Assembly (NCBI RefSeq): GCF_014451325.2
Contig: NZ_JACSCH020000007.1
Location: 68,965-132,964 of the forward strand
DNA: 64,000 bases
Direction of reading: 5' to 3'
Source: Streptomyces sp. CB02980
GTDB taxonomy: Bacteria; Actinomycetota; Actinomycetes; Streptomycetales; Streptomycetaceae
Shown here: in pieces, positions 38,072 through 54,751 of the stretch
Position numbering within the stretch: position 1 is the stretch's first letter
How the letters are laid out: each line of letters begins with the position of its first letter
Made by a program: the position numbers and the translations under genes
The notes under the pieces: generated by a model
Seen by the model: the letters and a program-made list of their open reading frames with translations, nothing else
Told to the model about the DNA's origin: nothing
Databases searched by the model: none

Positions 38072-38335
38072 TCAGCGTGCCGCCAGCTCCCAGACGGCGA
38101 CGAGCACACCGGCGCTCGCGGCCAGCGCGGCGATGCTGGTCAGCGGCCAGCGGGCGCGTTCCAGGTCGTCGAGGCGGGCCTCGTGGTCGGCGAGCTGCCG
38201 GTCGGTCTGGTCGCTGCGCTGCACGAGCAGGGCGAGCGAGCCGTCGACCCGGGCGAAGCCGGCCTCCAGGGTGCCGCGGAGCCGTTCCAGTTCGAGGGCG
38301 ACGGCGACGGGGTCGTTCGGGTCAGGATCGGTCAT
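38072..38335 (-). CDS. Small coiled-coil protein with one C-terminal membrane helix (lysis module)
   Basis: This 87-residue protein has a long charged helix with heptad-like spacing (LERLRGTLEAGFARVDGSLALLVQRSD...LADHEARLDDLERARW), followed by a single hydrophobic segment (SIAALAASAGVLVAVWELAA). It overlaps the holin gene by 14 bases and is the last gene of the module. Comparable small coiled-coil/TM proteins next to holins act as holin partners, antiholins or spanin-like proteins in phages. Which applies here is unknown. ATG 38335 was chosen. ATG/GTG 38341 is possible. Confidence 0.65.
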   Translation of the reverse strand: MTDPDPNDPVAVALELERLRGTLEAGFARVDGSLALLVQRSDQTDRQLADHEARLDDLERARWPLTSIAALAASAGVLVAVWELAAR

Positions 38336-38588
38336 CGGCACCGCCTTCGGCCGGGGTGCTGATCGGGCCGCGGGTACCGCTGTCGGTGCGGAGCCAGGCC
38401 GGGAGCAGGTTCTGCACCAGGTCCAGGGCCATCACCCGGGCCAGTCCGCCGGCGACGGCGAGCGCGCCGGCGACCCAGGGGAGGGTCGCGGGGACGCCGG
38501 AGGCGTCGACGATCGCGGGGAGCACGACGGCGATGCCGACGGCGGTCTGGAGGACGGTACGGGCCGTGCGCTGGGCGGCATCGGACAT
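38322..38588 (-). CDS. Holin
   Basis: This 88-residue protein has two hydrophobic segments (TVLQTAVGIAVVLPAIV and LPWVAGALAVAGGLARVMALDL) joined by a short loop and ending in a hydrophilic tail, the usual shape of an actinophage holin. It follows the amidase gene by 25 bases. Holins permeabilise the inner membrane so that the endolysin can reach peptidoglycan. Its presence indicates release of the particle by cell lysis. ATG is preceded by AGAGGAGACCCCCG. Confidence 0.8.
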   Translation of the reverse strand: MSDAAQRTARTVLQTAVGIAVVLPAIVDASGVPATLPWVAGALAVAGGLARVMALDLVQNLLPAWLRTDSGTRGPISTPAEGGADDRS

Positions 38589-38613
38589 CGGGGGTCTCCT
38601 CTGGGTGGGGTGG

Positions 38614-39525
38614 TTACTTCGTGTACGGGACCTTCAGCGCGCTCCAGGACGCGGCGCCGGGTATGCCGTCGGCGTCGGAGCCGCGGAAGCCGAGCTTGCG
38701 CTGCCACTTCGCGTAGCTGAGCCGGTCGGCCTCGCTCCAGCGGGGGCCGGGGCCGACGGTGTACGCGGCGCAGCCCTCGGCGACGAGACGGCGGCCCATG
38801 GCCGTGATGACCGGGGAGCTCGTCTCCTTGCGGAAGAACGAGGTGCCAGGGAACGGCTGGAGGCGGGGGGCGGCCGGCTTTCCGCTGCCGGGGGTGGGCT
38901 TGGCGGCGGCCTTGGCGAGCCGGGTCTGGACGCGCTGCCGGAGGGTCGGCATGCCGAAGCCCTTGGGGTCGCTCTTCCAGTCGGACCACTCCAGGTGGCC
39001 GATGACGGACTTGGCGCCCCAGCCGTGGGCCCGGCAGAGGGCGGCGGAGACCCGTTCGATCGCGTCGAGCTGGGCGGTCGGCCAGGGGTCGGTGCCGTTG
39101 CCGAGGTTGATGCACTCGAAGCCGTAGAAGCGGGAGTTGCCGTCGACGGCGCCGTCGCTGCCCTGGTGTTCGCGCGGGGCCGGCGGCCGGTCCGCGTACG
39201 TCTCGGTGATCACGGCCTGGAGGACGGACGGGTCGCCGCCGCCGGCGTGGTTGGCGCGTCCGTTGGCGACGAGGTGGACGGTGCCGTCCTTGGCGATGAC
39301 GCCGTGGCAGAGCGGGCCGGGCAGGCCCTCGTAGCCGTTGAAGCACATCTCGACGGTGGAGCGGGTGCCGGAGCTGACGGTGTGGTGGATCATCACGCCG
39401 GTGACCGGGCCCCAGGCGCCGGTGTGGTTGCGGTTGTGGGAGCGCCAGCCGGGGTGCTCGACGACGGTGACGCCTTCGGCGCGGAGTGCGGCGAGGAGCC
39501 GGTCCGCAGGGAGGGGAGTGGCCAT
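38614..39525 (-). CDS. Endolysin: N-acetylmuramoyl-L-alanine amidase (Amidase_2) with a C-terminal peptidoglycan-binding-like region
   Basis: This 303-residue enzyme cleaves the bond between muramic acid and the stem peptide. The amidase domain (about residues 20-195) contains MIHHTVSS (zinc His near 47-48), FECIN (Glu138), GHLEWSD (His177) and WKSDPKG (Asp186). Residues 235-303 carry a WSEADRLSYAKWQRKLGFRGSDADG motif resembling peptidoglycan-binding repeats. There is no signal peptide, consistent with holin-dependent release. ATG 39525 sits eight bases after GGAGG. Confidence 0.9.
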   Translation of the reverse strand: MATPLPADRLLAALRAEGVTVVEHPGWRSHNRNHTGAWGPVTGVMIHHTVSSGTRSTVEMCFNGYEGLPGPLCHGVIAKDGTVHLVANGRANHAGGGDPSVLQAVITETYADRPPAPREHQGSDGAVDGNSRFYGFECINLGNGTDPWPTAQLDAIERVSAALCRAHGWGAKSVIGHLEWSDWKSDPKGFGMPTLRQRVQTRLAKAAAKPTPGSGKPAAPRLQPFPGTSFFRKETSSPVITAMGRRLVAEGCAAYTVGPGPRWSEADRLSYAKWQRKLGFRGSDADGIPGAASWSALKVPYTK

Positions 39526-39698
39526 CTGGTGTCCTCCGGACATGAAAAAGGCCCGCGCGGAGGGCGGGCGGGCGTACGGGTGAGGCGGGGAGGCGGGTGA
39601 GGCGGGGGAGGGGCTCCCCGGGTGCCGGGGCCTGCGAGGGGCGGGTGCGGGCTCCGGTGCCGGCTCGGCTACGGGGCGGGTGCGGGCTCCGGTGTCGG

Positions 39699-40100
39699 CT
39701 ACGGGGCGGGCGCGGGCTCCGGCTCGGGTTCCGGTTCCGGCTGTGGGGCCCAGGTGTCGCAGAGCGAGGCGTAGGCCGCCCGGCGGGCCTCGAAGTCGGC
39801 GAGCGCGGCGGTGACGGCCCGCTGCGCGGCGGTCGGGTCGGGCGCGGCGGGGACGCCGTCCTTCGCCTCGATGACGGCCAGGCCGAAACCGCGCAGGGTG
39901 GCGTCACCCGTGCCGGTCCTGGCGAACTCCGCGCTGACGTGCACCGACGGGTACTGGCCCGTGATCGGGTCCCGCTCCAGGGTGTGGCCCAGACCGTTGT
40001 CGTAGACGCGTACGGAGAGGGTGTGGCCGTTCTCGGTGACGGAGGCGCGGCCGGCGTAGTCGATGGCCACGCCCCAGGGCTGGGTGGGGTCGATGTTCAT
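39699..40100 (-). CDS. Small tail-module protein with a Pro-Glu tail, unknown function
   Basis: This 133-residue protein begins MNIDPTQPWGVAIDYAGRASVTENG and contains VSAEFARTGTGDATLRGFGL and a helical AAQRAVTAALADFEARRAAYASL segment, ending in an alternating Glu-Pro/Ala-Pro tail. No known family is recognised. Its place between the tail fibre region and the endolysin suggests a tail accessory or adhesin piece. Downstream at 39666-39725 the non-coding DNA carries two copies of a 30-base GC-rich repeat. Confidence 0.6.
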   Translation of the reverse strand: MNIDPTQPWGVAIDYAGRASVTENGHTLSVRVYDNGLGHTLERDPITGQYPSVHVSAEFARTGTGDATLRGFGLAVIEAKDGVPAAPDPTAAQRAVTAALADFEARRAAYASLCDTWAPQPEPEPEPEPAPAP

Positions 40101-40143
40101 GGTGTGCTCCTCGGCGGCCCGGTCGGCCGCGATGGGCGGACGG

Positions 40144-40725
40144 TCAGGACTGGGTGCCGTACATGCTGACGGGCTGGGCGTACACCGTGCCGCTCGCGCT
40201 GGTGACCACGGCGTGGATCTCGACGGTCATCACCTTGCCGAACTTGGTCGCCAGGTCGACCGGGAGTAGACCGGTGTGGTCGAAGGTCTGCCCGGCGGCG
40301 ACGGTCGGGCCGAACTGCTGGCCGTCGACCATGACCTTCACCTGACCGGTCGCGCCGCTGGAGACCTTCGTGTACATCGCCAGCCGCATCTTGGGCTGCC
40401 AGACGGGATTGAAGGACTGGGCGATGGGGGTGAAGGCGGTGCTCGTCGTGGACGGCCACTTCGCTTCCTTCAGGTGGTCCACCGGCGGCATCAGCTGCAG
40501 CCACGGCCTGGCGAGGCCACCGGTGGCGATGTCGTCCGCGAAGATCTCGTGGTTGTAGCCGTCGAAGACCCGGAGGACCGGCTTGTTCGTGGCGGGGGAG
40601 GAGGCGGTCGGGACGGGCCGGATCTCGTTGAGGGGCGGCCGGGTGTTGACCGCGGTGGACAGCGCCTGGATCCGGCGCTCCATCTGGATCAGCCGGTCGA
40701 TGATGTCCTCGGGCAGCAGGGCCAT
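40144..40725 (-). CDS. Putative minor tail protein with N-terminal coiled coil
   Basis: This 193-residue protein has a short coiled-coil N-terminus (DIIDRLIQMERRIQALSTAVNTR), then VLRVFDGYNHEIFADDIATGG and a beta-rich C-terminal half (residues 100-193) likely to form a sandwich. Similar proteins occur near the tail tip of actinophages and may trimerise through the coiled coil. ATG 40725 shares a base with the stop of the upstream hub gene, so the two are coupled. Confidence 0.65.
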   Translation of the reverse strand: MALLPEDIIDRLIQMERRIQALSTAVNTRPPLNEIRPVPTASSPATNKPVLRVFDGYNHEIFADDIATGGLARPWLQLMPPVDHLKEAKWPSTTSTAFTPIAQSFNPVWQPKMRLAMYTKVSSGATGQVKVMVDGQQFGPTVAAGQTFDHTGLLPVDLATKFGKVMTVEIHAVVTSASGTVYAQPVSMYGTQS

Positions 40726-41840
40726 CAGGCCTCCTCGAGTGCGAGTTCGGCGGTGTCGGGTCGGCCTCGCTCGGCCGGCCTGACCTTGACGCCGACGATG
40801 CGGTAGCGGGCGTCGAGGCCCGTCGGGTGCCATTCGTCGGTGATGCGGATGCGGGCGGTGCGGCCGAGGAGCGCCGGGGGGACGATCCCGCCGAGCCGGA
40901 TGCTGATCTCGGGGATCTGCACGTGGCCCGCCTCCTGGTCGACGGCGGCCTGGGCGAGCGAGTTCAGCGTGTCCTTGTCGCTGACGTCGTTGTGGTCCGA
41001 GGACAGGTCGAGCTGGGGCCACAGGTCCGGGAGCGGATTCGTCGGCGTGGCCGGGTCGGAGACGGTCGGCCTGGACTCGGTGCCCGCGTTGCTGTTGGCC
41101 GAGGCGCCGCGGGCCAGGGCCACGGTTCCGCCGCGGGTGGCGTCGTCCGGGAGGGAGTACGACAGGATCGCGCCGGGCCGGTCGAAGAGCATGTCGGTGG
41201 CGCCGGTACGGATCTTGGGCGAGCCGAGCCGGAGCTGGCGGATCCGCGCGCCGTCGTCCGGGTCCCGGTAGACGAGGATCTGGTACTCGAAGCCGTTGTC
41301 CTGGGCGCCGAGCTGGTCGAGTGCCTCCTGGTAGACCGTCTCGTCCCCGTGCCGCCAGGAGGCCGTCCGCAGTACGCCGGAGTCCTCCGTCTCGTCGCCG
41401 ACGTCGATCTTGCTGCCGGCCAGGCCCTTGGACAGTTGCGACCAGAGGCTGCGGGCGATGACGAACTGGTCGGTCGGCTGGAGGAACCGGGTCTCGAACT
41501 CGTCCGTACGGATGCGTCGTCGGCCCGCGTACGAGTCGAAGGTGGAGGCCTGGATGCCCAGGGTCACCACGCCCCGGTCGCTGGACTGCAGGTTGGTGGT
41601 CCAGACGATGCCGCCCCACCAGAGGTCTCCGCCGCGCTCCAGGTAGACGGTGGTGCGGCCCGGCTTGATCTTGTGGGCCCGCTCGGCGATGGTGCGGTCG
41701 GGGATGGGGACGGTGCCGGAGAGGGAGCCGGCCCGGCCGATGTAGTCCTCGAAGGAGACGTCCCGCAGCGGCAGGATGTCGAGGGTCGTGTCGGTCACGA
41801 GGTCGCAGAAGATGGCCCGGTAGGGCGTGTCGAGTGCCAT
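40725..41840 (-). CDS. Tail hub/tail-associated protein (Gp37-like)
   Basis: This 371-residue protein begins MALDTPYRAIFCDLVTDTTLDILPLRDVSFEDYI and has RTTVYLERGGDLWWGGIVW, an N-terminal beta-barrel pattern of hub proteins, then a mixed region and a C-terminal barrel-like part. The layout matches siphovirus minor tail/hub proteins of the ReqiPepy6 Gp37-like type, which sit below the distal tail protein and hold fibres. Its place after the fibre genes is unusual, since hub genes usually follow the distal tail gene directly. Confidence 0.7.
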   Translation of the reverse strand: MALDTPYRAIFCDLVTDTTLDILPLRDVSFEDYIGRAGSLSGTVPIPDRTIAERAHKIKPGRTTVYLERGGDLWWGGIVWTTNLQSSDRGVVTLGIQASTFDSYAGRRRIRTDEFETRFLQPTDQFVIARSLWSQLSKGLAGSKIDVGDETEDSGVLRTASWRHGDETVYQEALDQLGAQDNGFEYQILVYRDPDDGARIRQLRLGSPKIRTGATDMLFDRPGAILSYSLPDDATRGGTVALARGASANSNAGTESRPTVSDPATPTNPLPDLWPQLDLSSDHNDVSDKDTLNSLAQAAVDQEAGHVQIPEISIRLGGIVPPALLGRTARIRITDEWHPTGLDARYRIVGVKVRPAERGRPDTAELALEEA

Positions 41841-41852
41841 GGGACAGCCCCC

Positions 41853-42989
41853 TTACAGGACGTAGGTCGCGGAGATGCGGATGTTCCGCCCGGCGACGAG
41901 GGCGCCGTTGGACGACCAGGTGCGCAGGTTGACCTGTCCGCTGGGCGAGATGTAGGCGCCGCCGTTGCCGAAGCCGTCGCAGGCGGAGGCCTCGTAGTCG
42001 ATGGCCGGGCGCCATCCGGCGGGCAGGGTGCACAGCGGTTCGTCGGCGATGTTGCCGGCGCTCTCGGCGTTGATGTTGGCGCCGTTGCGGGTGACGGTGA
42101 CGAGGACGGTCGCGAGGCCCCGGGAGCGGCGGGCGGAGAAGGACACCACCGTCCAGCCGGTCAGCGGGGTCACGCCGTTCGCCGTGGTCTCGACCTCCAC
42201 CGGCGGCTGGTAGGCCACCCAGCCGTTGCCGTTCCAGCGCTGGAGGGTCCCGTTGTTGTCGCGGAACTGGCCGGGGTAGCCGCCGGTGGAGATCGTCCCG
42301 TTGGGGGCGATGCCGCCGATCTCCTTCGGGTAGGCGACCCAGCCGTTGCCGTCCCAGCGCTGGAGGTAGTGGGCGTTGTCGTTGTCCTGGTACTGACCGG
42401 GGTAGGAACCGGGCACACCGGCGTTGTTGTAGACGGGCAGGATGCCGCCCACGCCGACGAGGGTGGTCCGCAGGTCGGTGACGGCCCCGCCCGCCCAGGC
42501 GATGCCGCCGGTGCCGGCCGAGGCCGACTTCTCCACCCTGACCGAGAAGAGGGGCAGGGAGAGCGGGGGTGCGTCCGGGGCGGACGGCTGCGCCTTCGGC
42601 GCGCCCCTGACGATCTCCAGGGCGGCTTCGCTCCTGGTCAGGGTGTCGAACTCGTCGTCGTACACGCGCAGGACGACGAGGTCGACGCGGGGGTTGAGCG
42701 GATCGCCGTCGCCGAAGGTGAGGACGGTGTCCGCGTCGAGGGTGACGGGGTACGCGCCCTGGGCGTTCGGGCCCTGGACGACGGCGCGGCCGGCGTAGAC
42801 GGTCGCGCTCATGGGGCCGCTGCCGCTCATCCAGAGGCCGCCGACCCGGTACTTGCCGTCGACCGTGCCGGGCAGGACGCCGGAGCGCGAGGCGAGCGGG
42901 TTGACCGGCGTGGTGGCGCCGTGGGCGGTGAGACGGGTGGTGACGCGGGTCTGCCCGGTCGGCGGGAGCCAGCCGCTGCGCAGTGCCAT
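41853..42989 (-). CDS. Tail fibre/receptor-binding protein paralogue 3
   Basis: This 378-residue protein starts MALRSGWLPPTGQTRVTTRLT, like its two upstream relatives. A shared N-terminal domain of about 165 residues is followed by a repeated unit of the form YPGQ-x-x-D...LQRW-[DN]-G-x-x-W-V-x-Y (two copies near residues 180-245). The C-terminal region of about 130 residues is unlike the other two. The N-terminus should anchor to the tail tip. The variable C-terminus should bind the target surface. It starts 33 bases after paralogue 2. Confidence 0.78.
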   Translation of the reverse strand: MALRSGWLPPTGQTRVTTRLTAHGATTPVNPLASRSGVLPGTVDGKYRVGGLWMSGSGPMSATVYAGRAVVQGPNAQGAYPVTLDADTVLTFGDGDPLNPRVDLVVLRVYDDEFDTLTRSEAALEIVRGAPKAQPSAPDAPPLSLPLFSVRVEKSASAGTGGIAWAGGAVTDLRTTLVGVGGILPVYNNAGVPGSYPGQYQDNDNAHYLQRWDGNGWVAYPKEIGGIAPNGTISTGGYPGQFRDNNGTLQRWNGNGWVAYQPPVEVETTANGVTPLTGWTVVSFSARRSRGLATVLVTVTRNGANINAESAGNIADEPLCTLPAGWRPAIDYEASACDGFGNGGAYISPSGQVNLRTWSSNGALVAGRNIRISATYVL

Positions 42990-43021
42990 GGTTTTCTCCT
43001 GTGGGGTGGGTGGATCCGGGA

Positions 43022-44212
43022 CTACGGCAGCGCGTCGACCCTGATGAAGGTGTTGTCGAAGCCGGCCTTGAGGGCGGGGGTGGCGGGGACGACCCGGAAG
43101 AAGGCCGTGAGGGTGTACGTCGCGCCCGCGGTCAGGCCGGACTGGCGGGTCGTGGTGGACACCGAGACCATGTTCTGGCTGGCGGCGAGCGCCGCGTAGT
43201 CGTCCTCGAGGTCGGCGATGACCGTGGTGCCCTGGGTGAGCCTGACCGCCATGAACGCGTAGTGGTCGGGGCTCGTCGACCGCATCTTCGCGCCGAAGCT
43301 GATGACGACCGCCCTCGACGGCGGGGCGACGAAGGAGAGCGTGAGCGGGTTGTTGGTGCGGCCCGCGAGCGTGGAGGTGTAGGCGGTCGACGTGGTGTCG
43401 CCGTAGTCGCGGTTGTCGACGAAGTACGGGCCCGCCACGACCGGGACCCACGTGGAACCGTCCCAGCGCTGGAGCTTGCCGTTCGTCGAGTCGCGGTACT
43501 GGCCCGTGTAGCTCGCCGGCGTGGTGGACGCGGACAACGGGATGATGCCGCCGAGCGCCGACGGGTACGAGACCCAGGCGCCGCCGTCCCAGCGCTGGAG
43601 CGCGCCGCCCGCGTCCTGGTACTGGCCGGGGTAGGCGCCCGGCAGGGACGCGCCCTCGACCGGGAGGATGCCGCCGAGGGCGACGACCGGGGTGCGCAGG
43701 TCCTTGAGCGCGCTGTCCCAGGGGATGCCGCCGTTGCCCGCGCTGGCACCGGCGGGGACGGTCACCTCGTACAGCGGGAGGCAGCGCGGCGGGACGGCCG
43801 GGGCCTGCGGGTCCTGGGTGGCTGCGCCCTGGATGATCTCGATGGTGGCCTCGGTGCGCGTGCCGCCGTCGTAGAGCTTGTCGTAGATCTTCAGGACGAG
43901 CACGTCCTTGCGGCTGTACAGGGCGTTGCCCGGGGCGAAGGTCACGACCTCGGAGGCCGGCAGCGTGACCGGGAAGACGCCCTGGGAGATCTCGCCCTGG
44001 ATGACGGCCCGGCCCTCGGAGACGGTCGCCGACATGGCGGCGGAGCCGAAGGTCCAGAAGCCGGAGAGCCGGTACTGGCCGCCGTACGAGCCGGGCAGGA
44101 CGCCGGAGCGGACCTGGACGGGGTTGGTCATGGTGGTGACGCCGGTCTGGGTGAGCCGGGTGTCCTCGCGGGTCTGGCCGGTCTCGGTGACCCAGCTGCT
44201 GCGCAGGTTCAT
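43022..44212 (-). CDS. Tail fibre/receptor-binding protein paralogue 2
   Basis: This 396-residue protein begins MNLRSSWVTETGQTREDTRLT. The N-terminal domain contains GVLPGSYGGQYRLSGFWTFG and a VLVLKIYDKLYDGG region equivalent to those in paralogues 1 and 3. Two copies of the GQYRD...LQRWDG repeat follow, and then a distinct C-terminal beta-rich domain ending FDNTFIRVDALP. It is one of three tandem genes with a shared 5' part and different 3' parts. Confidence 0.78.
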   Translation of the reverse strand: MNLRSSWVTETGQTREDTRLTQTGVTTMTNPVQVRSGVLPGSYGGQYRLSGFWTFGSAAMSATVSEGRAVIQGEISQGVFPVTLPASEVVTFAPGNALYSRKDVLVLKIYDKLYDGGTRTEATIEIIQGAATQDPQAPAVPPRCLPLYEVTVPAGASAGNGGIPWDSALKDLRTPVVALGGILPVEGASLPGAYPGQYQDAGGALQRWDGGAWVSYPSALGGIIPLSASTTPASYTGQYRDSTNGKLQRWDGSTWVPVVAGPYFVDNRDYGDTTSTAYTSTLAGRTNNPLTLSFVAPPSRAVVISFGAKMRSTSPDHYAFMAVRLTQGTTVIADLEDDYAALAASQNMVSVSTTTRQSGLTAGATYTLTAFFRVVPATPALKAGFDNTFIRVDALP

Positions 44213-44267
44213 GGGGTTTCTCCGTTCGGGGAGGCGGGAGTCGGGGGTCGGTGCGGCGTTCGGGGCG

Positions 44268-45461
44268 TCAGGACCGGACCCATTCGGCGGAGAGGGTGCA
44301 GGCGTAGCCCGAGCCGCCGAGGGTCTTGATCGCCGCGGTGTGGCTGTGGAAGCCGGCGAGCTGGAGGGTCTCGCCCGCGACGAGCCTGACCACGCTGCTG
44401 CCGCCGACGGAGATGGCGCCGTTGCCGGCAGGGGTGAGCCAGGTCATCCGGGACTGTCCGACGCCGCCGACCACGACGCGGGCGCCGCGCATGCCGGTCT
44501 GGGAGTCATTGGCCCAGGTGGCGTGTGCGGAGACCCGCCACCAGCCGGTGCGCGGCACGATGTAGGTGTTGTTCGAGGTCCAGGCGGCGGCGTCGTCGAC
44601 CTCGACGGTGGGCAGACCGAGGACGGTCCAGGTGTTGGGGGCGACGCTCTGGGCCTGGGCGGTCTGCCACTGGGTGGCGCAGAGCAGCACGGTCGCGGCG
44701 CCCTGGACGTACTGCCAGGAGGAACCGTTCCAGCGCTGCAGTCCGCCGCTGTTGTCCCGGTACTGGCCGGGGTAGCCGCCGGCGGCGGTGCCGCTCGGGG
44801 CGATGCCGCCGACGGCCTTCGGGTACGAGACCCAGGCCGCCCCTTCCCAGCGCTGGAAGAGGCCCGCGGTGTCCCGGTACTGGCCGGTGTAGGCGCCCTT
44901 GAAGCCGCTGGCGGGCATGATGCCGCCGAGCGCGACGACCGGCCAGTGCATGGTGGTGACGGCGGTGGCCCAGGCGATGCCGCCGGTGCCGGCCGAGGTG
45001 CCCTTCGGCACCCGGATCGTGTAGAGCGGGATGGTGCTGCCCGTACCGGTCTGCGGGACGGTGGGCGTCGCAGCGGGGGTGCCCTTGACCAGCCGTACGA
45101 CTGCCTCGGTGGTGCCCGTACGGTCGTAGACGTCGTCGATCACGGCCAGTTCGAGCAGGTCGATCCGGTCGTACTGCGGGTCGCCGTCCGCGAGCGTGAA
45201 GGTCTCCGGCGCGATGGCGGCCACGAGGTAGGCGCCCTGGGCGGTGTCGTTGCCCTGGACGATTGCGCGACCGGTGCCGATGGTGGCCTGCATGGGCGCG
45301 CTGCCGGTCAGGAGGAAACCGCCCGGCACGATGCCCGGGCGGGAGCGCAGGGGGGTCTCGTCGGCGCTCTGGCCGCTGGGGGTGAGCAGGGCGGCGAGGG
45401 TCAGGCGGGTGTCCTCGCGGGTCTGGCCGGTGGACGGGAGCCAAGCGGCGCGTACGGTCAT
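44268..45461 (-). CDS. Tail fibre/receptor-binding protein paralogue 1
   Basis: This 397-residue protein starts MTVRAAWLPSTGQTREDTRLT. It has the common N-terminal domain, two GQYRD...QRW repeats near residues 180-240, and a C-terminal domain whose WWRVSAHATWANDSQTGMRG and ETLQLAGFHSHTA stretches recall C1q/TNF-like jelly-roll receptor-binding tips. ATG 45461 lies eight bases after GGAGAGG. The GTG at 45470 is too close to that site. Confidence 0.78.
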   Translation of the reverse strand: MTVRAAWLPSTGQTREDTRLTLAALLTPSGQSADETPLRSRPGIVPGGFLLTGSAPMQATIGTGRAIVQGNDTAQGAYLVAAIAPETFTLADGDPQYDRIDLLELAVIDDVYDRTGTTEAVVRLVKGTPAATPTVPQTGTGSTIPLYTIRVPKGTSAGTGGIAWATAVTTMHWPVVALGGIMPASGFKGAYTGQYRDTAGLFQRWEGAAWVSYPKAVGGIAPSGTAAGGYPGQYRDNSGGLQRWNGSSWQYVQGAATVLLCATQWQTAQAQSVAPNTWTVLGLPTVEVDDAAAWTSNNTYIVPRTGWWRVSAHATWANDSQTGMRGARVVVGGVGQSRMTWLTPAGNGAISVGGSSVVRLVAGETLQLAGFHSHTAAIKTLGGSGYACTLSAEWVRS

Positions 45462-45573
45462 GGGGGTCACCTCTCCGGAAGGGGTCGGGGCGGGGCGGGC
45501 GCTGCGGAGGGCCGCCGCCCGCGGGCGCCCGTGGGCGGCCGGCGGGCGGCGGCGGGCGGTCGGCGCGTCCCGG

Positions 45574-46497
45574 TCACCACTCGGCGCTGCGCCAGCGCAC
45601 GGTCATCAGCGCGTTCTCGGTGCCCTCTTCGGGCCGGAAGGACAGGTCGGTCCGGCCGGGGTCGAGCACGAACAGCTCTTCCGGGGTGGAGTCGGCCATC
45701 GCGGTGTGCAGGCGGGAGGCGGAGTTGTTGAGCATGACCGTGCCCGCGCGGGTGTCGATGGTCAGTTCGTCGCCGGCGGTCAGGTCGATCGCGTACCGCA
45801 GCCGGCGCCTGCTGACCCGCTCGGTGACGGTCGGCATGGAGCACGGGCCGCGGAAGACGATGACCGGGTGGACCGGGGCCGAACCGGTGTTCTCGACGAC
45901 GGCGTCACCCGTGCTCTTCGCCTGGCCCCAGCTGAGCGGCCAGCTGAGCGGCCAGGTGAGGCCCGACTCAGGCTGCGGGGGGCTGGTCGTGGCGGTCTGC
46001 TCGTTGACGACGTACCGGCGCGGGTCGGCGGCCAGCCACTGGACCGACATGCGGGAGCTGCCCTGGGTGGCGAAGCCCTGGTCCGCCGGGACGACGCGCT
46101 GGGCGATCCGGGCGCGGACGGCGAGCAGTTCGCCGTGCAGCCGGACGGTGAGCCATCGCTCCTCGTCGAGGAGGGCGAGCGACTGCCGCAGGGCCCGGAC
46201 GGCCCCGGCGGTGCCGCCGTACTCCGGCATCAGCACGATCGTGCCGCCGACCTTGCGCGGCTTGGCGTACCGGGAGCCGGGCCAGGCGCCGTGGGAGGTG
46301 GGGCGGTCGGCGTCGGAGGAGTCGTACTCGGGCAGGTCCTCCCAGCCCGAGAGGCCGCTCTTGTCGACGGCGAAGGGGGTGCCGGGGCCTATGAGGAGTC
46401 CGGCCCACTGCATCTGCCCGTCCTGGGTGATGAGCGAGCCGGGCGCGAGGTCGGCGATGTAGGAGTTTCCTGCGTACGGGGTCGTGGTCTCGGCCAT
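45574..46497 (-). CDS. Distal tail protein (Dit-like, siphovirus tail component)
   Basis: This 307-residue protein has a Dit-type layout: an N-terminal barrel (DGQMQWAGLLIGPGTPFAVDKSGLSGW), a middle helix-rich part (GAVRALRQSLALLDEERW), and a C-terminal galectin-like part with VENTGSAPVHPVIVFRGPC, the segment most typical of phage tail-tip families. It should form the hexamer between tail tube and hub. A 12-base direct duplication inside the gene gives the repeated PLSW at about residues 182-189. Confidence 0.82.
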   Translation of the reverse strand: MAETTTPYAGNSYIADLAPGSLITQDGQMQWAGLLIGPGTPFAVDKSGLSGWEDLPEYDSSDADRPTSHGAWPGSRYAKPRKVGGTIVLMPEYGGTAGAVRALRQSLALLDEERWLTVRLHGELLAVRARIAQRVVPADQGFATQGSSRMSVQWLAADPRRYVVNEQTATTSPPQPESGLTWPLSWPLSWGQAKSTGDAVVENTGSAPVHPVIVFRGPCSMPTVTERVSRRRLRYAIDLTAGDELTIDTRAGTVMLNNSASRLHTAMADSTPEELFVLDPGRTDLSFRPEEGTENALMTVRWRSAEW

Positions 46498-46651
46498 GGG
46501 GCCGTCACCTCACTTGGGATGGGTCGGCGGTGGGCGGACGGGCGCGGGTCGGGGCGCGGGGCGGGGCCGTGGGCGGACGGGCGCGGGTCGGGGCCGCGGG
46601 CGGCGGCGGGCGGCGGGGTGAGCCGCCGTACCGGGTCCGCGGCTCCGGGTG

Positions 46652-47908
46652 TCAGCGGGCGGCGGTCGCGAGGAAGAGCAGGTCCTCGGCGGTTGACCGG
46701 GGGCCGGCGCCGGGCTCCTCGTGGAAGTCCCGGACGCGGTGCGGCGGCCGGGGCGTCTCGGTGAGGGCCGGGACGCGGCGGTTCTCCAGCTGTGCGAGCG
46801 AGTCGATGCGGTAGTCGTCCGCGGAGCCGGGAGAGACGATGCCGCCGTCGGCGAGCATCGGGATCTTGTCGAGTTCGACGCCGAACTTCTTGCCGGTGAG
46901 CGGGATTTCGAAGCTGAGCTTGTTGAGCCCGTCGATGATCCAGTTGGCGAAGGCGATCAGGCCGTTGATGGGCCCCTTGACGACGCCGATCACGGCGCTG
47001 AGGCCGCCCTTGACCAGGTCTCCGATGCCCCGCATGGCCTTGCTCACGGCGTCCTTGGCGGTACGGAAGAAGCCGGGCACCTTGTCGGTGACCCAGGTGA
47101 CGACCGGCTGGACGGCGCTCTTGATGCCGCCGATCGTGCGGGAGGCGATGCCGCGGAGCGCGTTCGTGGCGGAGGAGACGGCGGAGCGGAGCTTGGAGAT
47201 CCCGCCGATGGCCGCGCCGACGATCTTCAGCGCGGTCTTGAAGAGGGTCAGATAGGCCTTGAAATAGGTGCCCACGGCCTCGCCGAGGAGCTTCATGATC
47301 GGCTGGAGGAACTTCCAGACCGCCTGGAAGCCCTTCAGCGCCTGCTGCATGGCCTGCTTGATGAGTCGCTGACCGGTCTCGGAGTTGACCGCGAGCTCGA
47401 TCAGATACGCCGCGACGGGCACGATCAGGCCGACGAGGAAGCCGAGCGGATTGGCCCGCATGGCGACGTTGACGCCTGTCATGGCGACGGAGGCGACGGT
47501 CATGACGATGCCGAAGGTGCCCATGAGACCGGCGATGACGTCGGTGATGGGCAGCAGCGGCAGGAGGATGCCGAGGACGGCGGCGCCGCCGGTGCCGATC
47601 CTCCCCGCGGCGGTACGGGCCTTGCCGGCGGCGGTGCCGATGCGCCGGACGCCCGTGGGCGCGGTGGAGCGGCGGATCCTGCCCATCGCGGTGGCGGCTC
47701 CGGAGGCGTTCTGGCCGAGGTTCCGGAGAGCGGTGCCGGTCGTGCCCATCACGGTGGCGAGGCCGCCGATCCCGCCGGCCGCCTGTCGTACGTCCTGGGA
47801 GAGGCGCCGCAGTGAGCCGCCCGCGTCACCGAGTCCCCGGGCCAGGGAGTTCACCGTCGGGACGGCCGCCCGGAAGTTCGGCAGGCCGCCCAGGGCCACG
47901 GCGCTCAC
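46652..47908 (-). CDS. Tape-measure-related tail protein 2
   Basis: This 418-residue protein has an N-terminal Ser/Gly/Ala helix region (SLRRLSQDVRQAAGGIGG), several long hydrophobic helices between residues 100 and 215, and a C-terminal half that aligns by eye with that of the upstream gene (IKSAVQPVVTWVTDKVPG..., GKKFGVELDKIPMLADGGIV). These traits fit a tape-measure protein. GTG 47908 overlaps the previous stop (GTGA). At 418 residues it is far shorter than the 800-2000 of many siphophages. Confidence 0.75.
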   Translation of the reverse strand: MSAVALGGLPNFRAAVPTVNSLARGLGDAGGSLRRLSQDVRQAAGGIGGLATVMGTTGTALRNLGQNASGAATAMGRIRRSTAPTGVRRIGTAAGKARTAAGRIGTGGAAVLGILLPLLPITDVIAGLMGTFGIVMTVASVAMTGVNVAMRANPLGFLVGLIVPVAAYLIELAVNSETGQRLIKQAMQQALKGFQAVWKFLQPIMKLLGEAVGTYFKAYLTLFKTALKIVGAAIGGISKLRSAVSSATNALRGIASRTIGGIKSAVQPVVTWVTDKVPGFFRTAKDAVSKAMRGIGDLVKGGLSAVIGVVKGPINGLIAFANWIIDGLNKLSFEIPLTGKKFGVELDKIPMLADGGIVSPGSADDYRIDSLAQLENRRVPALTETPRPPHRVRDFHEEPGAGPRSTAEDLLFLATAAR

Positions 47909-49119
47909 GCGCGTGCTCCACGCGCCTTCACGAGGTACATCAGCGCGTCGGCGGTCGCGTGCGGGTCGCTGGTGCGGGCCGCGTGGTAGTGCTCGATGTG
48001 CAGTCCGGCGCCGACGCCGGTGCCGCCGGTCTGGTGGCCCTGGGCCGCGCGGGCGCGGCGGGCGGTCTGGGCGAGGAGCCGGTCCAGCTTGGAGAGCGGG
48101 AGGACGGCCTCGGCCTCGCCGGCCTCGGCGAGGATCGCCGGGACACCGCCGTGGCGGGGCATGACGACACCACCGGTGGCGAGCATCGGGATGGTCGGGA
48201 TGCTGACGCCGAAGGTCTTGCCGCCGACGACCGGCACCCAGCCGGGGACGCTGACCTTGACCCTGTTCAGGCTGCCGATCATGCCGTTGATCAGGCTGAT
48301 GACGGCGTTGATCGGGGACTTCACGCCGTCCTTGATGCCGTTGAACGCCCGGGACGCGATGTCCTTGAGGCCGTTCCAGACGGACGACATCTTGTCCTTG
48401 ACGGCGCTGAAGGCCTTCGGGATCGCGGACTTGATCCAGTTCACCACCGGGGTGATGACGGCCTTGATGCCGTTCCAGACCGTGCTGATCACGGTCTTGA
48501 TCGCCTTCATGACCGTGGTGATGACCGTCTTCCAGATCTTCACGTAGGTCTTGATGACGGTGGCGACGGCCTTGACGACGGTGGAGATGGCCTTCTTGAT
48601 GCCGTTCCAGACCGTCTTGATCAGGTCGCCTGCCTTCTTCATGATCGGCCCGACGGCCTTCATGACGGAGCTGATGACGCTCTTGATGGCACTGAAGGCC
48701 TTCTTCAGGACCGTCTGCATCGTCTTCGAGCGAAGCGCCATGTCGACGATCGCCTCGATGAGCGGCATGAAGAGTTCGAGCAGGCGGACCAGGAAGTTGC
48801 CCTTCATGGACTTGTTGAGCTTGTCCTGGCCCTTGGCCGCCTTGCCGGCGCCGGACTCGTACTTGCCGAGCTTGCCGCCGGCCGACTGAGCGGTGTCGCC
48901 GGCCTTCTTCATGGCGCGTTCGGCCTGCTCGGAGGCGGTCTTGAGGTTCTTGAGCTGGGTACCGGAGCCCTGGGCGTTGGTCCGGAGCGTCTTGAGCTGC
49001 CCGGATGCCGACTTTCCGGCGTCTCCGACCTTCTTGACCGAGGATCCGGCTCCGGAGGCCTGGGTCTTGAGGTTGCGCAGGGCGTCGGACGACTTCTTGA
49101 GGGAACTGACGAGAGACAT
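47905..49119 (-). CDS. Tape-measure-related tail protein 1
   Basis: This 404-residue protein has a Lys/Ser-rich coiled N-terminus (residues 1-105), a central run of repeating amphipathic-hydrophobic helices with recurring VWNGIK (near 170, 220 and 260), and a C-terminus with LATGGVVMPRHGGVPAILAE, the very typical end of tape-measure proteins. The tape-measure protein sets tail length. It is coupled to the second tape-measure-like gene by a four-base overlap. ATG follows GAAAGGAGGTAACCCCCC. Confidence 0.85.
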   Translation of the reverse strand: MSLVSSLKKSSDALRNLKTQASGAGSSVKKVGDAGKSASGQLKTLRTNAQGSGTQLKNLKTASEQAERAMKKAGDTAQSAGGKLGKYESGAGKAAKGQDKLNKSMKGNFLVRLLELFMPLIEAIVDMALRSKTMQTVLKKAFSAIKSVISSVMKAVGPIMKKAGDLIKTVWNGIKKAISTVVKAVATVIKTYVKIWKTVITTVMKAIKTVISTVWNGIKAVITPVVNWIKSAIPKAFSAVKDKMSSVWNGLKDIASRAFNGIKDGVKSPINAVISLINGMIGSLNRVKVSVPGWVPVVGGKTFGVSIPTIPMLATGGVVMPRHGGVPAILAEAGEAEAVLPLSKLDRLLAQTARRARAAQGHQTGGTGVGAGLHIEHYHAARTSDPHATADALMYLVKARGARA

Positions 49120-49149
49120 GGGGGGTTACCTCCTTTCGGGGCGGGTGGG

Positions 49150-50175
49150 TCAGGCCATGGCCTGAGCGGCCTCCTGGGCCTTGGTCTTGAGGGTGTTGAA
49201 GGCCTGGGCCACGTCCCGGCCCGCTTCCGCGAGCCGCTCGGCGGCCTTGGCGGCCGATTCCAGACCACGGGCCTTCGGGATCTTCTTCGGGTCGAAGTGC
49301 CGCTGCGCGCTCGCGAGCTTTCCCGTCGCCGTCGCCATCGCCTTGACCTGCGTGGGGTTGCTGTCCGCCATGGCCGCGTTGAGCTTCTCGAGCTTCTTGG
49401 GGTCGGGGACCTTCTTCGGGTCGTAGTCCTGCAAGGCCTTGACGAGCTTGTCGGCCTTGTCGGCGACGAGGTCGATCTTCTCGGGGTTGGCGGCGCTGAT
49501 GACGGTGTTGACCTTGCCGACGGCTTCCGCCGTCTTGGCGAGAGAGCTCGCGCTCGGCAGCTTGCGGACGCCGTTGTTGAACACCAGGATTCGCCGGTTG
49601 ACGGCGCCGAGCTTCTCGAACAGGGGATTCAGCAGGGCGGGGTTCGGCGGATCGGTGAGGCCGGCGAGGCCGCCACCCGCGGCGGCCTCGCGGCCCTCGA
49701 CGAGATCGCGGTTCTGGGGACGGATGCCGCGACCGCTGTTCGAGGTGGCCAGGACGGTCGACCGGCCGGTGAAGAGCCTGGAGATCGCTGCCTGGAGGGT
49801 TCGTTGGAGGTATTGCGCATTGGCCACGAACAGGACGCCGAGCGCGCCGATGACGAGGGCCGCGACGGCGCCGGCGATGGTCGACGTCCAGTACTTGAGG
49901 GCCGTTCCGATGCTCTCGCCCTCGTACAGCTTCTCGATGCCGGCGGCGATGCCGTCGAAACCGGCGGCCTCCCAGTACTCCGACACCGGGTTCTTCACGA
50001 CCTCCTTGTGGATGTCGTCGATCTTCCCCTTCATGCCGCTCACCAGCTCTTCGAGGGGAGCCAGTTTCTGCTTCAGCCACTCGGTCGTGGGCAGCCAGCC
50101 GCCGTCCACCTTCCGTACGTAGTGCCTGATGCCTGCGATCTGGAGCTGGAGATCCTCTGTCGTTACTTCTGCCAT
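49150..50175 (-). CDS. Tail-module protein with one membrane segment
   Basis: This 341-residue protein has an N-terminal helical part (EDLQLQIAGIRHYVRKVDGGWLPTTEW), a hydrophobic segment at about residues 97-119 (WTSTIAGAVAALVIGALGVLFVA), and a long Lys/Ala/Asp-rich helical C-terminus with DPKKVPDPKKLEKLNAAM and DPKKIPKARGLESAAK, two related units. No family is recognised. It starts the structural run before the tape-measure genes and might be delivered with or shape the tape measure. ATG 50175 was chosen because the upstream frame is Arg/Pro-rich non-coding sequence. Confidence 0.65.
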   Translation of the reverse strand: MAEVTTEDLQLQIAGIRHYVRKVDGGWLPTTEWLKQKLAPLEELVSGMKGKIDDIHKEVVKNPVSEYWEAAGFDGIAAGIEKLYEGESIGTALKYWTSTIAGAVAALVIGALGVLFVANAQYLQRTLQAAISRLFTGRSTVLATSNSGRGIRPQNRDLVEGREAAAGGGLAGLTDPPNPALLNPLFEKLGAVNRRILVFNNGVRKLPSASSLAKTAEAVGKVNTVISAANPEKIDLVADKADKLVKALQDYDPKKVPDPKKLEKLNAAMADSNPTQVKAMATATGKLASAQRHFDPKKIPKARGLESAAKAAERLAEAGRDVAQAFNTLKTKAQEAAQAMA

Positions 50176-50269
50176 GGTCTGCTCCGCTTCTGGCCGGTGA
50201 CGGCCGAGCGCCGAAAAGCCCCCACCGGTGTCGGCAGGGGCTTGTTCGAGTGGGGGCGGCGGGCGGCGG

Positions 50270-50482
50270 CTAGGCGTCCTCGCTCCGGCGGGAGTCGCGC
50301 CGCACCGTCGCGAGCGCGTCGTTCCAGCCGGCCGCGTACGCACGGGTCTCGCAGCGGGAGACCTCGGCGTACAGGCTGCCGAGCAACGCTCTCTTGTCGA
50401 GGGCGGCGGGTCCGTCGAGGAGCTGGCGGAGGCGGTCCTGGAGAGGGATCTGCGGTCGCGATGCCTCGGCCTGCTGGGTCAT
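50270..50482 (-). CDS. Small protein of the tail module, related to the divergent gene
   Basis: This 70-residue protein is MTQQAEASRPQIPLQDRLRQ followed by LLDGPAALDKRALLGS, YAEVSRCETRAYAAGWNDAL and a charged end. The AEV-x-R-x-ET-x-A[FY]-x-AGW-x-[ED]A motif also occurs in the plus-strand gene at 50784. No known domain is recognised. It is first after the divergent promoter region and may be a regulator-like or chaperone-like small protein. Confidence 0.6.
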   Translation of the reverse strand: MTQQAEASRPQIPLQDRLRQLLDGPAALDKRALLGSLYAEVSRCETRAYAAGWNDALATVRRDSRRSEDA

Positions 50483-50783
50483 GGACGCCTGCCTTCCGGT
50501 TGCTTGCCCGTGCGTGCGTGGCGGCGCCGCGGAGTGAGGAGCGGGGGCACCACGTGTTCGAACTCTTGTGCGAATAGAGTGTGGAACATCTGTTCGGTGT
50601 TTGTCGAGCGGGAAACGTCTGACGGTGTGTCTTCTCGTCAAGTTCCCGAACGGGTTGGCGGCTGAAGGTGATTCTGTTCGACCGGGTAACCTGGAAGACG
50701 CTCTCCGGACCGGACCACGTCGGGGCGCGGGGGGCGCGAGGGGCGCGCGGGGACCCCAGGGGGCTGGAAGGCAGTACTGACGC
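50483..50783. promoter_or_regulatory. Divergent intergenic region inside the tail module
   Basis: This is 301 bases between a minus-strand gene starting at 50482 and a plus-strand gene starting at 50784. It is less GC-rich than its surroundings, holds a LexA-like palindrome at 50558-50573 and a plus-strand TANNNT hexamer TAGAGT at 50575-50580, and shows no coding pattern. It must contain the promoters of both divergent units. The minus-strand -10 is not clear. Confidence 0.6.
50558..50573. promoter_or_regulatory. LexA (SOS) box-like palindrome
   Basis: TCGAAC-TCTT-GTGCGA differs by one base from the actinobacterial SOS consensus TCGAAC-N4-GTTCGA. It lies 76 bases upstream of the 70-residue gene that begins the leftward tape-measure/fibre/lysis run. 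Damage control of that run is an inference. Confidence 0.55.
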
Positions 50784-51548
50784 ATGGAAACGGAGCCGGG
50801 TGCCAACCGGCGGGAGCGAGTCGTCGACTGGCTCGCGTCCCATCCCGATCTGCCCCATCTCTTCGCACGCCTCTCCGAGCTCGTCCTGGTCCACGGGTAC
50901 GCCACCGAGGACCTCGTCGTGATCCCCCGGGCCGAGGTCGACCGCCGGGAGACGGCCGCGTTCACCGCGGGCTGGGCCGAGGCCGTGTCGGACGAACTCC
51001 CGCGCATACGACGGGAGTACGAGAAGCGCGTCGCCGACGCCTACACCCAGGGCCAGGGCGACGCGCGGGGCATCCGCCGGCCCGAGCGGCGGATCGACAG
51101 CGGACAGGACGGCGCCCGGGTCATCGCGCTGCCCTTCGCCCGGCTCCTCGAACCGCCCGCCGCCGTGGTCGAGGCCGAGGAGCGTGTCCGCAGGGAACGC
51201 GAACTGTTCGAACAGCGGCCCGAACCGGAACCCGAGCACGCCTCGGGCCCGGAGCCGGGCTCGGACCCCGACGTCCTCGTGACCGCCCAGGAGAGCCGCA
51301 CCCGCAGGAGCGCCCAGCCGGTACGGAAGGTCGTGCGCGGCAAGGGCGGGCGCCCGATCGTGCCGCCGCTCGCCGGGGTCCCCACACAGAACGGCCCGAA
51401 CGCCGACCGGCGCGACCACGAGGCCAACGACGCCGACACGCGTCCCGGCAAGGGGCGCCGGGGCTCGCTGTCCGAGCGGGCCAAGGCCCTGGAGAAGGAG
51501 CTCTCCGCCGAGCGAGCACGGGAAGCGCCCCCGGAGTCCGCTCCCTGA
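50784..51548 (+). CDS. Plus-strand gene of unknown function within the minus-strand tail module
   Basis: This 254-residue protein has NRRERVVDWLASHPDLPHLFARL at the start, then a motif AEV-x-R-x-ET-x-AF-x-AGW shared with the 70-residue gene on the other side of the divergent promoter, and a long charged, Pro/Glu/Arg-rich and probably disordered C-terminal half with RGSLSERAKALEKELSAER helical end. It could be a regulator or an assembly factor. No domain is recognised. It converges on the chaperone T frame, leaving 27 bases between them. Confidence 0.6.
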   Translation: METEPGANRRERVVDWLASHPDLPHLFARLSELVLVHGYATEDLVVIPRAEVDRRETAAFTAGWAEAVSDELPRIRREYEKRVADAYTQGQGDARGIRRPERRIDSGQDGARVIALPFARLLEPPAAVVEAEERVRRERELFEQRPEPEPEHASGPEPGSDPDVLVTAQESRTRRSAQPVRKVVRGKGGRPIVPPLAGVPTQNGPNADRRDHEANDADTRPGKGRRGSLSERAKALEKELSAERAREAPPESAP

Positions 51549-51575
51549 CGGGAACGGCCTCCGGGGGCCGCGGGG

Positions 51576-52312
51576 TCACCCGAAGAACCGGGCGAGGGCG
51601 TGGGGAGACACTGCCGCGCTCTCCTCGGCACGCGTGGTCCGTCCGTGCTCGTCGGTGTCCGTGCCGTCCGCCCCGTCGTGGTCGCCGTCCTCGCCCTCGT
51701 CCGGGCCGCCCGGACGGGGGACGGGCGTCGGCGGATCGGGCTGGTCGCCGTCCTCGCCGCCGTTGACGCACATGAACATCCAGTTGGAGACGGCCAGATG
51801 GTCCACCGTGGCCGCCAGCAGATGGTCGGTGACCGACCACTCCGCGGCCTCGCCGTGGAGCTCCCGCTGGACGGCGCTGTCCCGCGGCAGATGCTTGATC
51901 AGTGCCAGCACCCGGCGGCTGGAGAGCGTGCCGCGGTGCCAGTCGAGGAGATCGGTGGAGTAGTAGCGGAGGAAGTCCGCCTCAAGGGCCTCGGCGTGTT
52001 CGTCGACGAACTCGACGAGGCTCAGTCTTCCCCCAGGCCGAGCCCGGTCTCCTTGCCGTAGGCCTCCAGGATGGCGGCGATGTCCTGCATGGTGATGTCG
52101 TGCTGCTCGAAGGCGGCGAACTGCTTGTCACCCATCAGGAGCGCGAGCAGCCCGTCCACGTCGTTGTCGTCGAGCTTGCGCAGCGCCTTGGCCGTCGCAC
52201 GGCTCAGTTCGGTCGGAAGGGTGTAGCTCTCGCCGTCCAGCTCGAAGGACCAGGCGCGACCGTGGGCCTCCTGTCGCTGGGCGCGGGCGGCGTTGACGTC
52301 GAAACGGGCCAT
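51576..52312 (-). CDS. Tail assembly chaperone G-T fusion made by -1 frameshifting
   Basis: The 96-residue G frame (52312-52022) runs into a second frame that is open from about 52028 to a stop at 51576. Shifting back one base after GAA in GGGGGAA joins them into a 245-residue protein. The T part continues RLSLVEFVDEHAEALEADFL, then YYSTDLLDWHRGTLSSRRVLALI and ends in an acidic Asp/Gly region. In lambda and many siphophages gpG and gpGT coat the tape measure during tail assembly. Reading frames and the slip site are seen. The ratio of products is not. Confidence 0.8.
52022..52312 (-). CDS. Tail assembly chaperone G (unshifted product)
   Basis: This 96-residue protein, MARFDVNAARAQRQEAHGRA, contains SFELDGESYTLPTELSRATAK and a helical C-terminus (DITMQDIAAILEAYGKETGL). 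Such small proteins follow the tail-tube gene in siphophages. Termination at TGA yields G. A minority slip gives the G-T fusion. ATG is preceded by AAGGAGTACGCATCACC. Confidence 0.82.
   Translation of the reverse strand: MARFDVNAARAQRQEAHGRAWSFELDGESYTLPTELSRATAKALRKLDDNDVDGLLALLMGDKQFAAFEQHDITMQDIAAILEAYGKETGLGLGED
52028..52034 (-). promoter_or_regulatory. Slippery heptamer GGGGGAA for -1 frameshifting
   Basis: On the minus strand the zero frame reads CTG GGG GAA GAC TGA. The G-GGG-GAA heptamer ends six bases before the G-frame stop, and a one-base backward slip enters the open T frame. The G-run allows full re-pairing in the P site and partial re-pairing in the A site. Confidence 0.75.
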
Positions 52313-52406
52313 GGTGATGCGTACTCCTTGTTCCGGGTGAAAGAAGGGGAGATCGGGAGAGGGGCGGGGCGGGACGGATCTCTCCGTCCCGCCCCTGGAG
52401 AAGGGA

Positions 52407-53018
52407 TCAGACGGTCGCGGAGTACTGGCTGTCCTTCATGAGGAAGGTCGCCAGCGGCTTGCCGTCGCCCTTCGACATGGCGCTGAAGGTGACGCCCAGC
52501 TGGGACGCCGCCTTGCGGGCCAGCTTGATGTCGTCGGTGGCGGTGACCTGACCGCGCGGGATGATGAAGCGGTACTTCACCGCGGTCGTGCCACCGGCCT
52601 TGACGTCGGTGAACTCCAGGCCGAGGGCGCGCACGTCGGCGAACGGACGCTCGGCGATCTCGTAGCGGTAGGTGTCGACGGCCGGGGTCGGCTCCGCCTT
52701 GACGGCGTCGCCGCCCATGAAGAAGGGCAGCGTGTCCTCGTTGAACTGGAGCAGCGAGAACTTCAGCGAGAGGTCACGGCTCGAGTAGATGTAGTGGACC
52801 GGGGAGACCGACTGCCACGAGTCGATGGCCTCCAGCTTGTCCTTCTTCGAGAAGGTGACGCCGTCGCCGGAGGTGAAGCCCAGGTCCTTCCAGCCCGCGC
52901 CGGACCAGTCGGCGGCGGAGTCGGTGCCGAAGGTGGCCGGGGCGGAGGTGCCGGCGTCGGCCACGTAGAGCTTGCCGGTGCCGGCGACGCGGATCTCGGC
53001 CGAGTTGTTTCCTGCCAT
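52407..53018 (-). CDS. Major tail tube protein
   Basis: This 203-residue protein, MAGNNSAEIRVAGTGKLYVADAG, is followed by repeated beta-strand segments (WKDLGFTSGDGVTFSKKDKLEAIDSWQS, SRDLSLKFSLLQFNEDTLPFFMGG, KYRFIIPRGQVTATDDIKLARKAASQLGVTFSAM). This matches actinophage tail tube subunits with a gpV-like fold. Position directly between the tail terminator candidate and the chaperone gene supports the call. It should be the most abundant particle protein. ATG follows AAGGAGAAACCCACC. Confidence 0.85.
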   Translation of the reverse strand: MAGNNSAEIRVAGTGKLYVADAGTSAPATFGTDSAADWSGAGWKDLGFTSGDGVTFSKKDKLEAIDSWQSVSPVHYIYSSRDLSLKFSLLQFNEDTLPFFMGGDAVKAEPTPAVDTYRYEIAERPFADVRALGLEFTDVKAGGTTAVKYRFIIPRGQVTATDDIKLARKAASQLGVTFSAMSKGDGKPLATFLMKDSQYSATV

Positions 53019-53159
53019 GGTGGGTTTCTCCTTGATGAGAGGGCCGCCGCCCCGGACATCGGTCCGGGTACGGCAAAGGCCCCGCCGGACGGCGAGGCCT
53101 GGTCTGTGGGGCGAGCGCCCGGGGGCACTCGGTGAGGCCCGGAGGCGCTCGGCGAGCGG

Positions 53160-54698: not shown

Positions 54699-54700
54699 GA

Positions 54701-54735
54701 AAGCGCCCCCCGTCCTTCACGGACGGGGGGCGCTT
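54701..54735. terminator. Bidirectional terminator between the ATP-grasp gene and the regulator operon
   Basis: A perfect 15-base-pair stem (54701-54715 and 54721-54735, TTCAC loop) lies between two converging units, three bases after one stop and 17 after the other. On the minus strand it continues into TCTCATG. Confidence 0.88.
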
Positions 54736-54751
54736 CTCGTACGACGGGGAG

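Follow-up and report, generated by a model that had tools for sequence, protein, structure and literature searches.

Tandem tail fibres with divergent tips in a Streptomyces locus that probably encodes an SOS-induced F-type tailocin

The report on rhizoviticin names the F-pyocins and monocins as the other F-type (non-contractile) tailocins (PMC10811719). F-pyocins of Pseudomonas, monocins of Listeria and rhizoviticin of Allorhizobium each combine a headless siphovirus tail with lysis genes, and reach their targets through tip or fibre proteins (PMC10811719). We analysed a 64,000-nucleotide stretch of Streptomyces sp. CB02980 (contig NZ_JACSCH020000007.1; the window, with positions counted from its first letter), which likewise carries siphovirus tail and lysis genes, in a cluster of ~18 kb (38072-56125) inserted between rpoC and rpsL. 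Within this cluster lie three tandem fibre genes, F1, F2 and F3. We consider it probable that these encode the receptor-binding fibres of a siphovirus tail that has been domesticated as an SOS-induced F-type tailocin, and the most likely role of the predicted headless tail with its three tip proteins is that of a weapon against related bacteria. Unlike the described F-type tailocins, the locus has a Streptomyces host, an rpoC-rpsL site, Raleigh/SV1-like tail genes, two to four tandem paralogous fibres and a tape measure made as separate short proteins.

The temperate Raleighvirus and SV1-like phages of Streptomyces share with this locus the gene order from gp12/terminator to holin and the mount domain of gp18. 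These phages have heads, an integrase, one tape measure of ~800 amino acids (aa) and one gp18, and Raleigh also has the gp21 fibre. Head, packaging and integration homologues, which such temperate prophages have, were not found in the cluster. For carotovoricin (PMC13195805) and the R-type syringacins (PMC6331570), the accessible parts of the reports describe fibre-locus recombination that renews target range between strains, as appears to happen here; unlike those systems, the present locus has several slots, each of which retains a single tip family, and non-contractile tail genes. Streptomyces contractile injection systems are also phage-tail derivatives, but the Pfam and PHROGs scans of cluster proteins gave no sheath or contractile baseplate match. 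We found no report of an F-type tailocin in Streptomyces in the open-access literature, a search that left subscription papers and preprints mostly outside. F-type tailocins themselves are known; what is new here is the host group, the insertion between rpoC and rpsL, the tape measure in two parts and the array of several tips in a fixed order.

The three fibre genes are as follows.

44268-45461, minus strand: F1, 397 aa, slot 1 fibre, with mount (residues 1-180), two repeats and a predicted C1q-like tip of family C (residues 250-397)
43022-44212, minus strand: F2, 396 aa, slot 2 fibre, with the shared mount, two repeats and a predicted TNF/C1q-like, lectin-type tip of family B
41853-42989, minus strand: F3, 378 aa, slot 3 fibre, with the shared mount, two repeats and a tip of family A (phrog_9468/12150)

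An initial annotation, made from the sequence, had described three tandem fibres with a common N-terminus and different C-termini, and this arrangement was borne out, on the minus strand. The genes are placed between Dit (upstream of F1) and a Tal-like gene (downstream of F3) on one strand, with gaps of 55 bases (F1/F2), 32 bases (F2/F3) and 12 bases (F3 to the Tal-like gene). As had also been claimed, each paralogue has the start motif W...TGQTR..TRLT, a shared middle region and two repeats of the form GQYRD..(L/F)QRW, at residues 191 and 230 (F1), 194 and 235 (F2), and 196 and 238 (F3). Pairwise alignment, the check proposed at the time, gave 44-54% identity up to residue 249-261 and 15-20% thereafter, with the break directly C-terminal of the second repeat. 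None of 500 permutations reached a two-rate break of this size, and uniform divergence along the fibres is thereby contradicted; the divergent portion measured about 120-148 residues, not quite the 130-150 first given. In local alignment the tips scored against one another as shuffled tips do, and no similarity between the tip families emerged from profile-profile comparison. Searches with F1-F3 returned weak, sub-threshold matches alone from Pfam and, with the fibres or their alignments as queries, nothing useful among the sequences of solved structures; no relative was found among viral contigs with F1 as the query.

The surrounding cluster holds a non-contractile siphovirus tail set (tube, terminator, chaperone, tape measure, Dit and Tal, as assigned with Pfam and PHROGs) and a lysis cassette of amidase endolysin and holin-like protein. 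Tail, tip and lysis genes follow the Raleigh/SV1 order and the single fibre gene of those phages is threefold here, which supports the tailocin reading. Homologues of the Raleigh terminase, portal, head morphogenesis, major capsid and integrase proteins were absent from the 64-kb window, and no scanned cluster protein was assigned to head, packaging or integrase functions, the MerR-like protein having weak helix-turn-helix matches to small terminase. To place the cluster among its relatives, we used related loci collected with a Dit profile (n=80, nearly all Streptomyces); the same five Raleigh proteins were encoded in 0 of the 80. The transcription order is WhiB-like, MerR-like, terminator, tube, chaperone, TmpA, two tape-measure-like proteins, Dit, F1-F3, Tal, two tip proteins, amidase and holin-like protein. 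The individual features, from the lysis end, are listed below.

38072-38341, minus strand: small conserved lysis-region protein, with homologues in the same place in phages Raleigh and SV1
38322-38588, minus strand: holin-like protein (phrog_4316, 4e-24; weak holin matches)
38614-39543, minus strand: endolysin, N-acetylmuramoyl-L-alanine amidase (PF01510, 1.7e-21; phrog_880, 1e-75)
39699-40100, minus strand: short tip-region protein, without a match in the family search
40144-40725, minus strand: tail-tip protein (phrog_9849)
40725-41840, minus strand: Tal-like minor tail protein (phrog_1885, 4e-61), directly downstream of F3
45574-46497, minus strand: Dit, distal tail protein (phrog_5577, 7e-79; PF22768, 8e-9), directly upstream of F1
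46652-47908, minus strand: TmpC, short tape-measure-like protein (phrog_3981, 2e-28)
47905-49119, minus strand: TmpB, short tape-measure-like protein (phrog_1535, 8e-27)
49150-50175, minus strand: TmpA, fast-evolving, with an apparent hydrophobic segment on reading the sequence and no match in the family search
50270-50482, minus strand: small conserved protein, first gene of the leftward arm of a divergent pair
50558-50597, divergent intergenic region: LexA/SOS-box-like palindromes TCGAACTCTTGTGCGA and TGGAACATCTGTTCGG
50784-51548, plus strand: divergent gene, conserved in the cluster, function unassigned
51576-52127, minus strand: tail assembly chaperone (phrog_3656, 1e-28)
52407-53018, minus strand: major tail tube protein (PF25681, 1e-58)
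53160-53570, minus strand: tail terminator (phrog_123, 7e-19)
54752-54955, minus strand: MerR-type DNA-binding protein (phrog_2474, 6e-13)
55685-56125, minus strand: WhiB-like regulator (PF02467, 1e-7)
56220-56669, plus strand: helix-turn-helix-type regulator, named by reading and not by family search, which adjoins rpsL and travels with the cluster

The tape measure is represented by two overlapping short open reading frames (404 and 418 aa; 46652-49119), as against one of ~802 aa in related phages; they match overlapping parts of tape-measure families and may reflect a split or a duplication. An ATP-grasp-like gene (53871-54698, plus strand; named by reading) lies inside the cluster in several relatives and is absent from others. 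A consensus promoter scan found nothing, and terminator-like sites occurred at chance level.

The accessible text of a study of S. venezuelae reports a predicted prophage cluster (vnz_21525, vnz_21545, vnz_21550) that is LexA-regulated according to chromatin immunoprecipitation sequencing and induced 190- to 526-fold by mitomycin C; in that text the cluster carries this name, and neither a headless tail nor a fibre array is described (PMC9380542). Both published 14-base SOS boxes matched exactly one of 158 loci compared, L037. There, one lies in the gap between the divergent genes whose homologues in the window are at 50270-50482 and 50784-51548, the other 171-184 bases upstream of Dit; the published distances from SOS box to start codon agree with those in L037 to within about 20 bases, though not base for base. 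All 44 loci tested have the SOS palindrome in the same intergenic region, at 11/12 or 12/12 positions and with a variable spacer, and the window has TCGAACTCTTGTGCGA at 50558. Because of this conserved palindrome and the published S. venezuelae boxes, LexA control in this strain is likely. Scanning viral contigs for the 14-base LexA box was uninformative.

We clustered tips on their last 112 residues, which gave four main families: C (F1), B (F2), A (F3) and D. When the repeats were left in, single-linkage clustering ran the families together, and this version was dropped. Loci carry 1 to 4 fibres, and the slot order is constant across them (C, D, B, then A or D) with individual slots present or absent. 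The arrangement C-B-A was found in 24 loci including this one, D-B-D in 6, D-B-A in 5, and C-D-B-A and C-D-B-D in 2 each; one-fibre loci have tip D (18 loci) or tip B (11 loci). C-D-B-D rises to 3 with locus L115, where a count of five or six fibres was rejected; two listed 'fibres' were overlapping wrong-frame reading frames, and the real number after their removal is four. Where the stretch contained Tal as well as amidase, a second fibre of the Raleigh gp21 type was present in 24 of 25 one-fibre loci and in 0 of 46 multi-fibre loci, so extra fibre slots accompany the absence of the gp21-type fibre.

Structure prediction, also proposed earlier as a way to tell sugar-binding from protein-binding tips, was run on F1 and F2 using AlphaFold2 with relatives as input. 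The F2 model had a mean predicted local distance difference test score (pLDDT) of 81.5, with the tip mostly >90; the F1 model was weaker (mean pLDDT 70.1, tip blocks mostly 73-93). The modelled F1 tip fitted best to the central spike knob of phi812 (Z 18.1, root mean square deviation (rmsd) 2.0, 136 residues), followed by C1q-family domains (Z about 15-17) and the carbohydrate-binding domain of the cyanophage A-1(L) short fibre (Z 14.6). For the F2 tip the fits were to Pgp3 (Z 12.3) and to the lectins PLTL (Z 12.0, rmsd 2.6, 118 residues) and BC2L-C (Z 11.3). The F1 monomer thus resembles the C1q/TNF fold at Z 14.5-18 and F2 at Z 8.5-12.3, and the two tips seem to have a superfold in common, although no similarity of sequence is detectable between them. 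The lectin matches of these models suggest that the tips may bind sugar.

From the gene content, headless state, conservation, tip modularity and SOS-type sites of the cluster, we infer the following course of events. DNA damage would inactivate LexA and allow the cluster genes to be expressed; tails would assemble with Dit and Tal as the hub, at which the common N-terminal mounts of F1-F3 may dock; and amidase and holin would lyse the producer and release the particles. Glycans in the cell walls of related actinobacteria may then be the ligands of the C1q/TNF-like tips. If one particle bears three tip types, or if the particles form a mixed population, the range could widen or the avidity rise; recombination between strains would renew the tip alleles, with the repeat linker as the likely joint. 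More tentatively, and with somewhat less than even confidence, we propose that a single particle carries up to four different adhesins in a set order, taken from an almost closed alphabet of four tip families; allelic recombination would renew each slot, and recognition of several receptors would replace the gp21 fibre of the one-fibre relatives.

Several points weigh against the tailocin reading. Assembly, co-mounting, receptor type and killing are predicted steps, as is the docking site at the Dit/Tal hub. The structural models are monomers, of F1 and F2 only, and the F2 mount does resemble parts of other fibres, in favour of the reading, but these fold matches are moderate, with middling Z scores (HFTV1 fibre, Z 9.2, rmsd 3.0, 122 residues; cyanophage A-1(L) tail fibre, Z 9.1, rmsd 3.0, 97 residues). 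L037 is very probably the S. venezuelae locus and the orthologue of the published cluster, an assignment supported by two exact 14-base matches at the right places. Ratios of non-synonymous to synonymous substitution (dN/dS, Nei-Gojobori) were low in the tail genes (0.19 for tube, 0.23 for Dit), whose conservation favours the reading, and rose to 0.45-0.67 for the fibre mounts and 0.75-1.07 for the tips; in such GC-rich genes, however, these are a relative measure in which the ranking alone is meaningful. A strong TmpB match was present in just 18 of 199 sampled Streptomyces genomes.

Among the alternatives, the one that survives best is a tail-like particle for signalling, development-linked lysis or cargo delivery, with TmpA as cargo and the fibres anchoring it to the producer's own or partner cells, which we regard as unlikely. 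No gene of the cluster evolves faster than TmpA, a candidate for a cargo or a pore protein, which has a median identity between species of 34% where Dit has 90%, and the highest dN/dS; a WhiB-type regulator also lies within the cluster. Such non-killing roles have been proposed for Streptomyces contractile systems, in which tape-measure-related effectors exist (PMC13277306, PMC11126660). However, the fast-evolving and apparently exchanged tips of the present locus point to conflict with varying targets. LexA control together with holin and endolysin, moreover, is the usual arrangement in tailocins.

It is rather improbable that F1-F3 are ordinary duplicates in which some parts diverged faster than others and tips were never exchanged. 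In a tree of mounts (N-domains) that included six C-B-A loci, each slot of these loci formed its own clade, as plain duplication would have it, and the shared superfold of the modelled F1 and F2 tips fits as well. The separate clades indicate that the fibre set is old and inherited slot by slot. In the same tree, however, tips A, B and D occur on at least two to four separate mount lineages, and the family A tip is also found in phage Raleigh gp18; both speak against duplication without exchange, as does the abrupt loss of identity after the repeats. Distances between species across the 24 C-B-A loci, in which pairs are non-independent and values descriptive, agreed mutually among backbone genes (rank correlations up to 0.85). 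Relative to Dit, TmpB, TmpC and Tal, distances of the B tip clearly followed (0.41-0.60), those of the A tip did so more weakly (0.30-0.50), and those of the C tip hardly at all (0.09-0.23). This points to allelic exchange of tips between species, clearest in slot 1 and also in slot 3, and the tree supports movement of tip families between mounts in the deeper past. The kind of tip per slot is constant among close relatives, unlike in a freely shuffling repertoire.

A decaying Raleigh-like prophage remnant, functionless and with a fibre gene duplicated by chance, has little probability. The tail genes are akin to those of temperate Streptomyces phages, and two loci are damaged: in Streptomyces hydrogenans JCM 4771 (L077) the slot 2 family B fibre is broken at about 12298, with slots 1 and 3 intact, and in genome G012 the cluster is split and displaced. 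The G012 pieces (L061, L062, L041) place TmpB-TmpC-Dit on one strand and fibres-Tal on the other, with ~54 kb between them, as an inversion would leave them, and two regulators alone, the XRE and WhiB homologues, are still at rpsL (L156). Against decay, tail, fibre and lysis reading frames persist across dozens of species, the headless state and the site recur, the SOS palindrome is conserved, and the accessible text on the S. venezuelae cluster gives induction up to 526-fold (PMC9380542). The flank contains rpoC in 63 of the 80 loci; G012 and G096 are exceptions to the site, the latter having no cluster genes between rpoC and rpsL and its cluster elsewhere in the genome. Of nine other genomes examined at rpsL, these two included, seven had no cluster gene between rpoC and rpsL, which are 0.4-7.6 kb apart there. 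The cluster is thus a persistent chromosomal locus across species, at a site shared by most loci and empty in non-carriers. Of 199 Streptomyces genomes, 43 had a match to the mount profile, in some cases because they hold true prophages that have heads and a single fibre. Two-fibre loci in Yinghuangia soli (L124) and Catenulispora rubra (L145, with tips of their own family) extend the related elements beyond Streptomyces, and a C-B-A locus recorded as Microtetraspora glauca NRRL B-3735 (L078) falls among the Streptomyces ones, so that its name is probably wrong. Lastly, it is barely credible that the cluster donates tails to a gene transfer agent or satellite whose head genes come from another part of the genome: a cluster of tail genes alone might in principle be complemented in trans, but packaging genes were found in none of the 80 loci, a result for the cluster itself and not from a genome-wide search for head genes, and the lysis genes sit beside the tail genes.

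As the reading of F1-F3 as parts of an F-type tailocin stands, a multi-receptor device, one of the options first suggested, is the best supported, given the clustered tail-tip genes, the 24 intact C-B-A loci and the modelled C1q/TNF-type knobs of F1 and F2. Cassette exchange holds in a restricted form, for slot 1 and 3 alleles between species and for families between mounts long ago; the suggested repertoire for different targets does not hold as a freely shuffling set. The initial annotation of the fibres mentioned neither the missing head genes nor the LexA-type site.

F-type tailocins are few, and S. venezuelae, a model species, very probably carries an orthologous locus. In the accessible text few LexA targets respond to DNA damage as strongly as this cluster, which is nevertheless named a predicted prophage cluster (PMC9380542). 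The ordered multi-tip array allows a direct test of whether one tail particle engages several receptors simultaneously, and its fixed slots with moving alleles offer a system for studying the evolution of target range.

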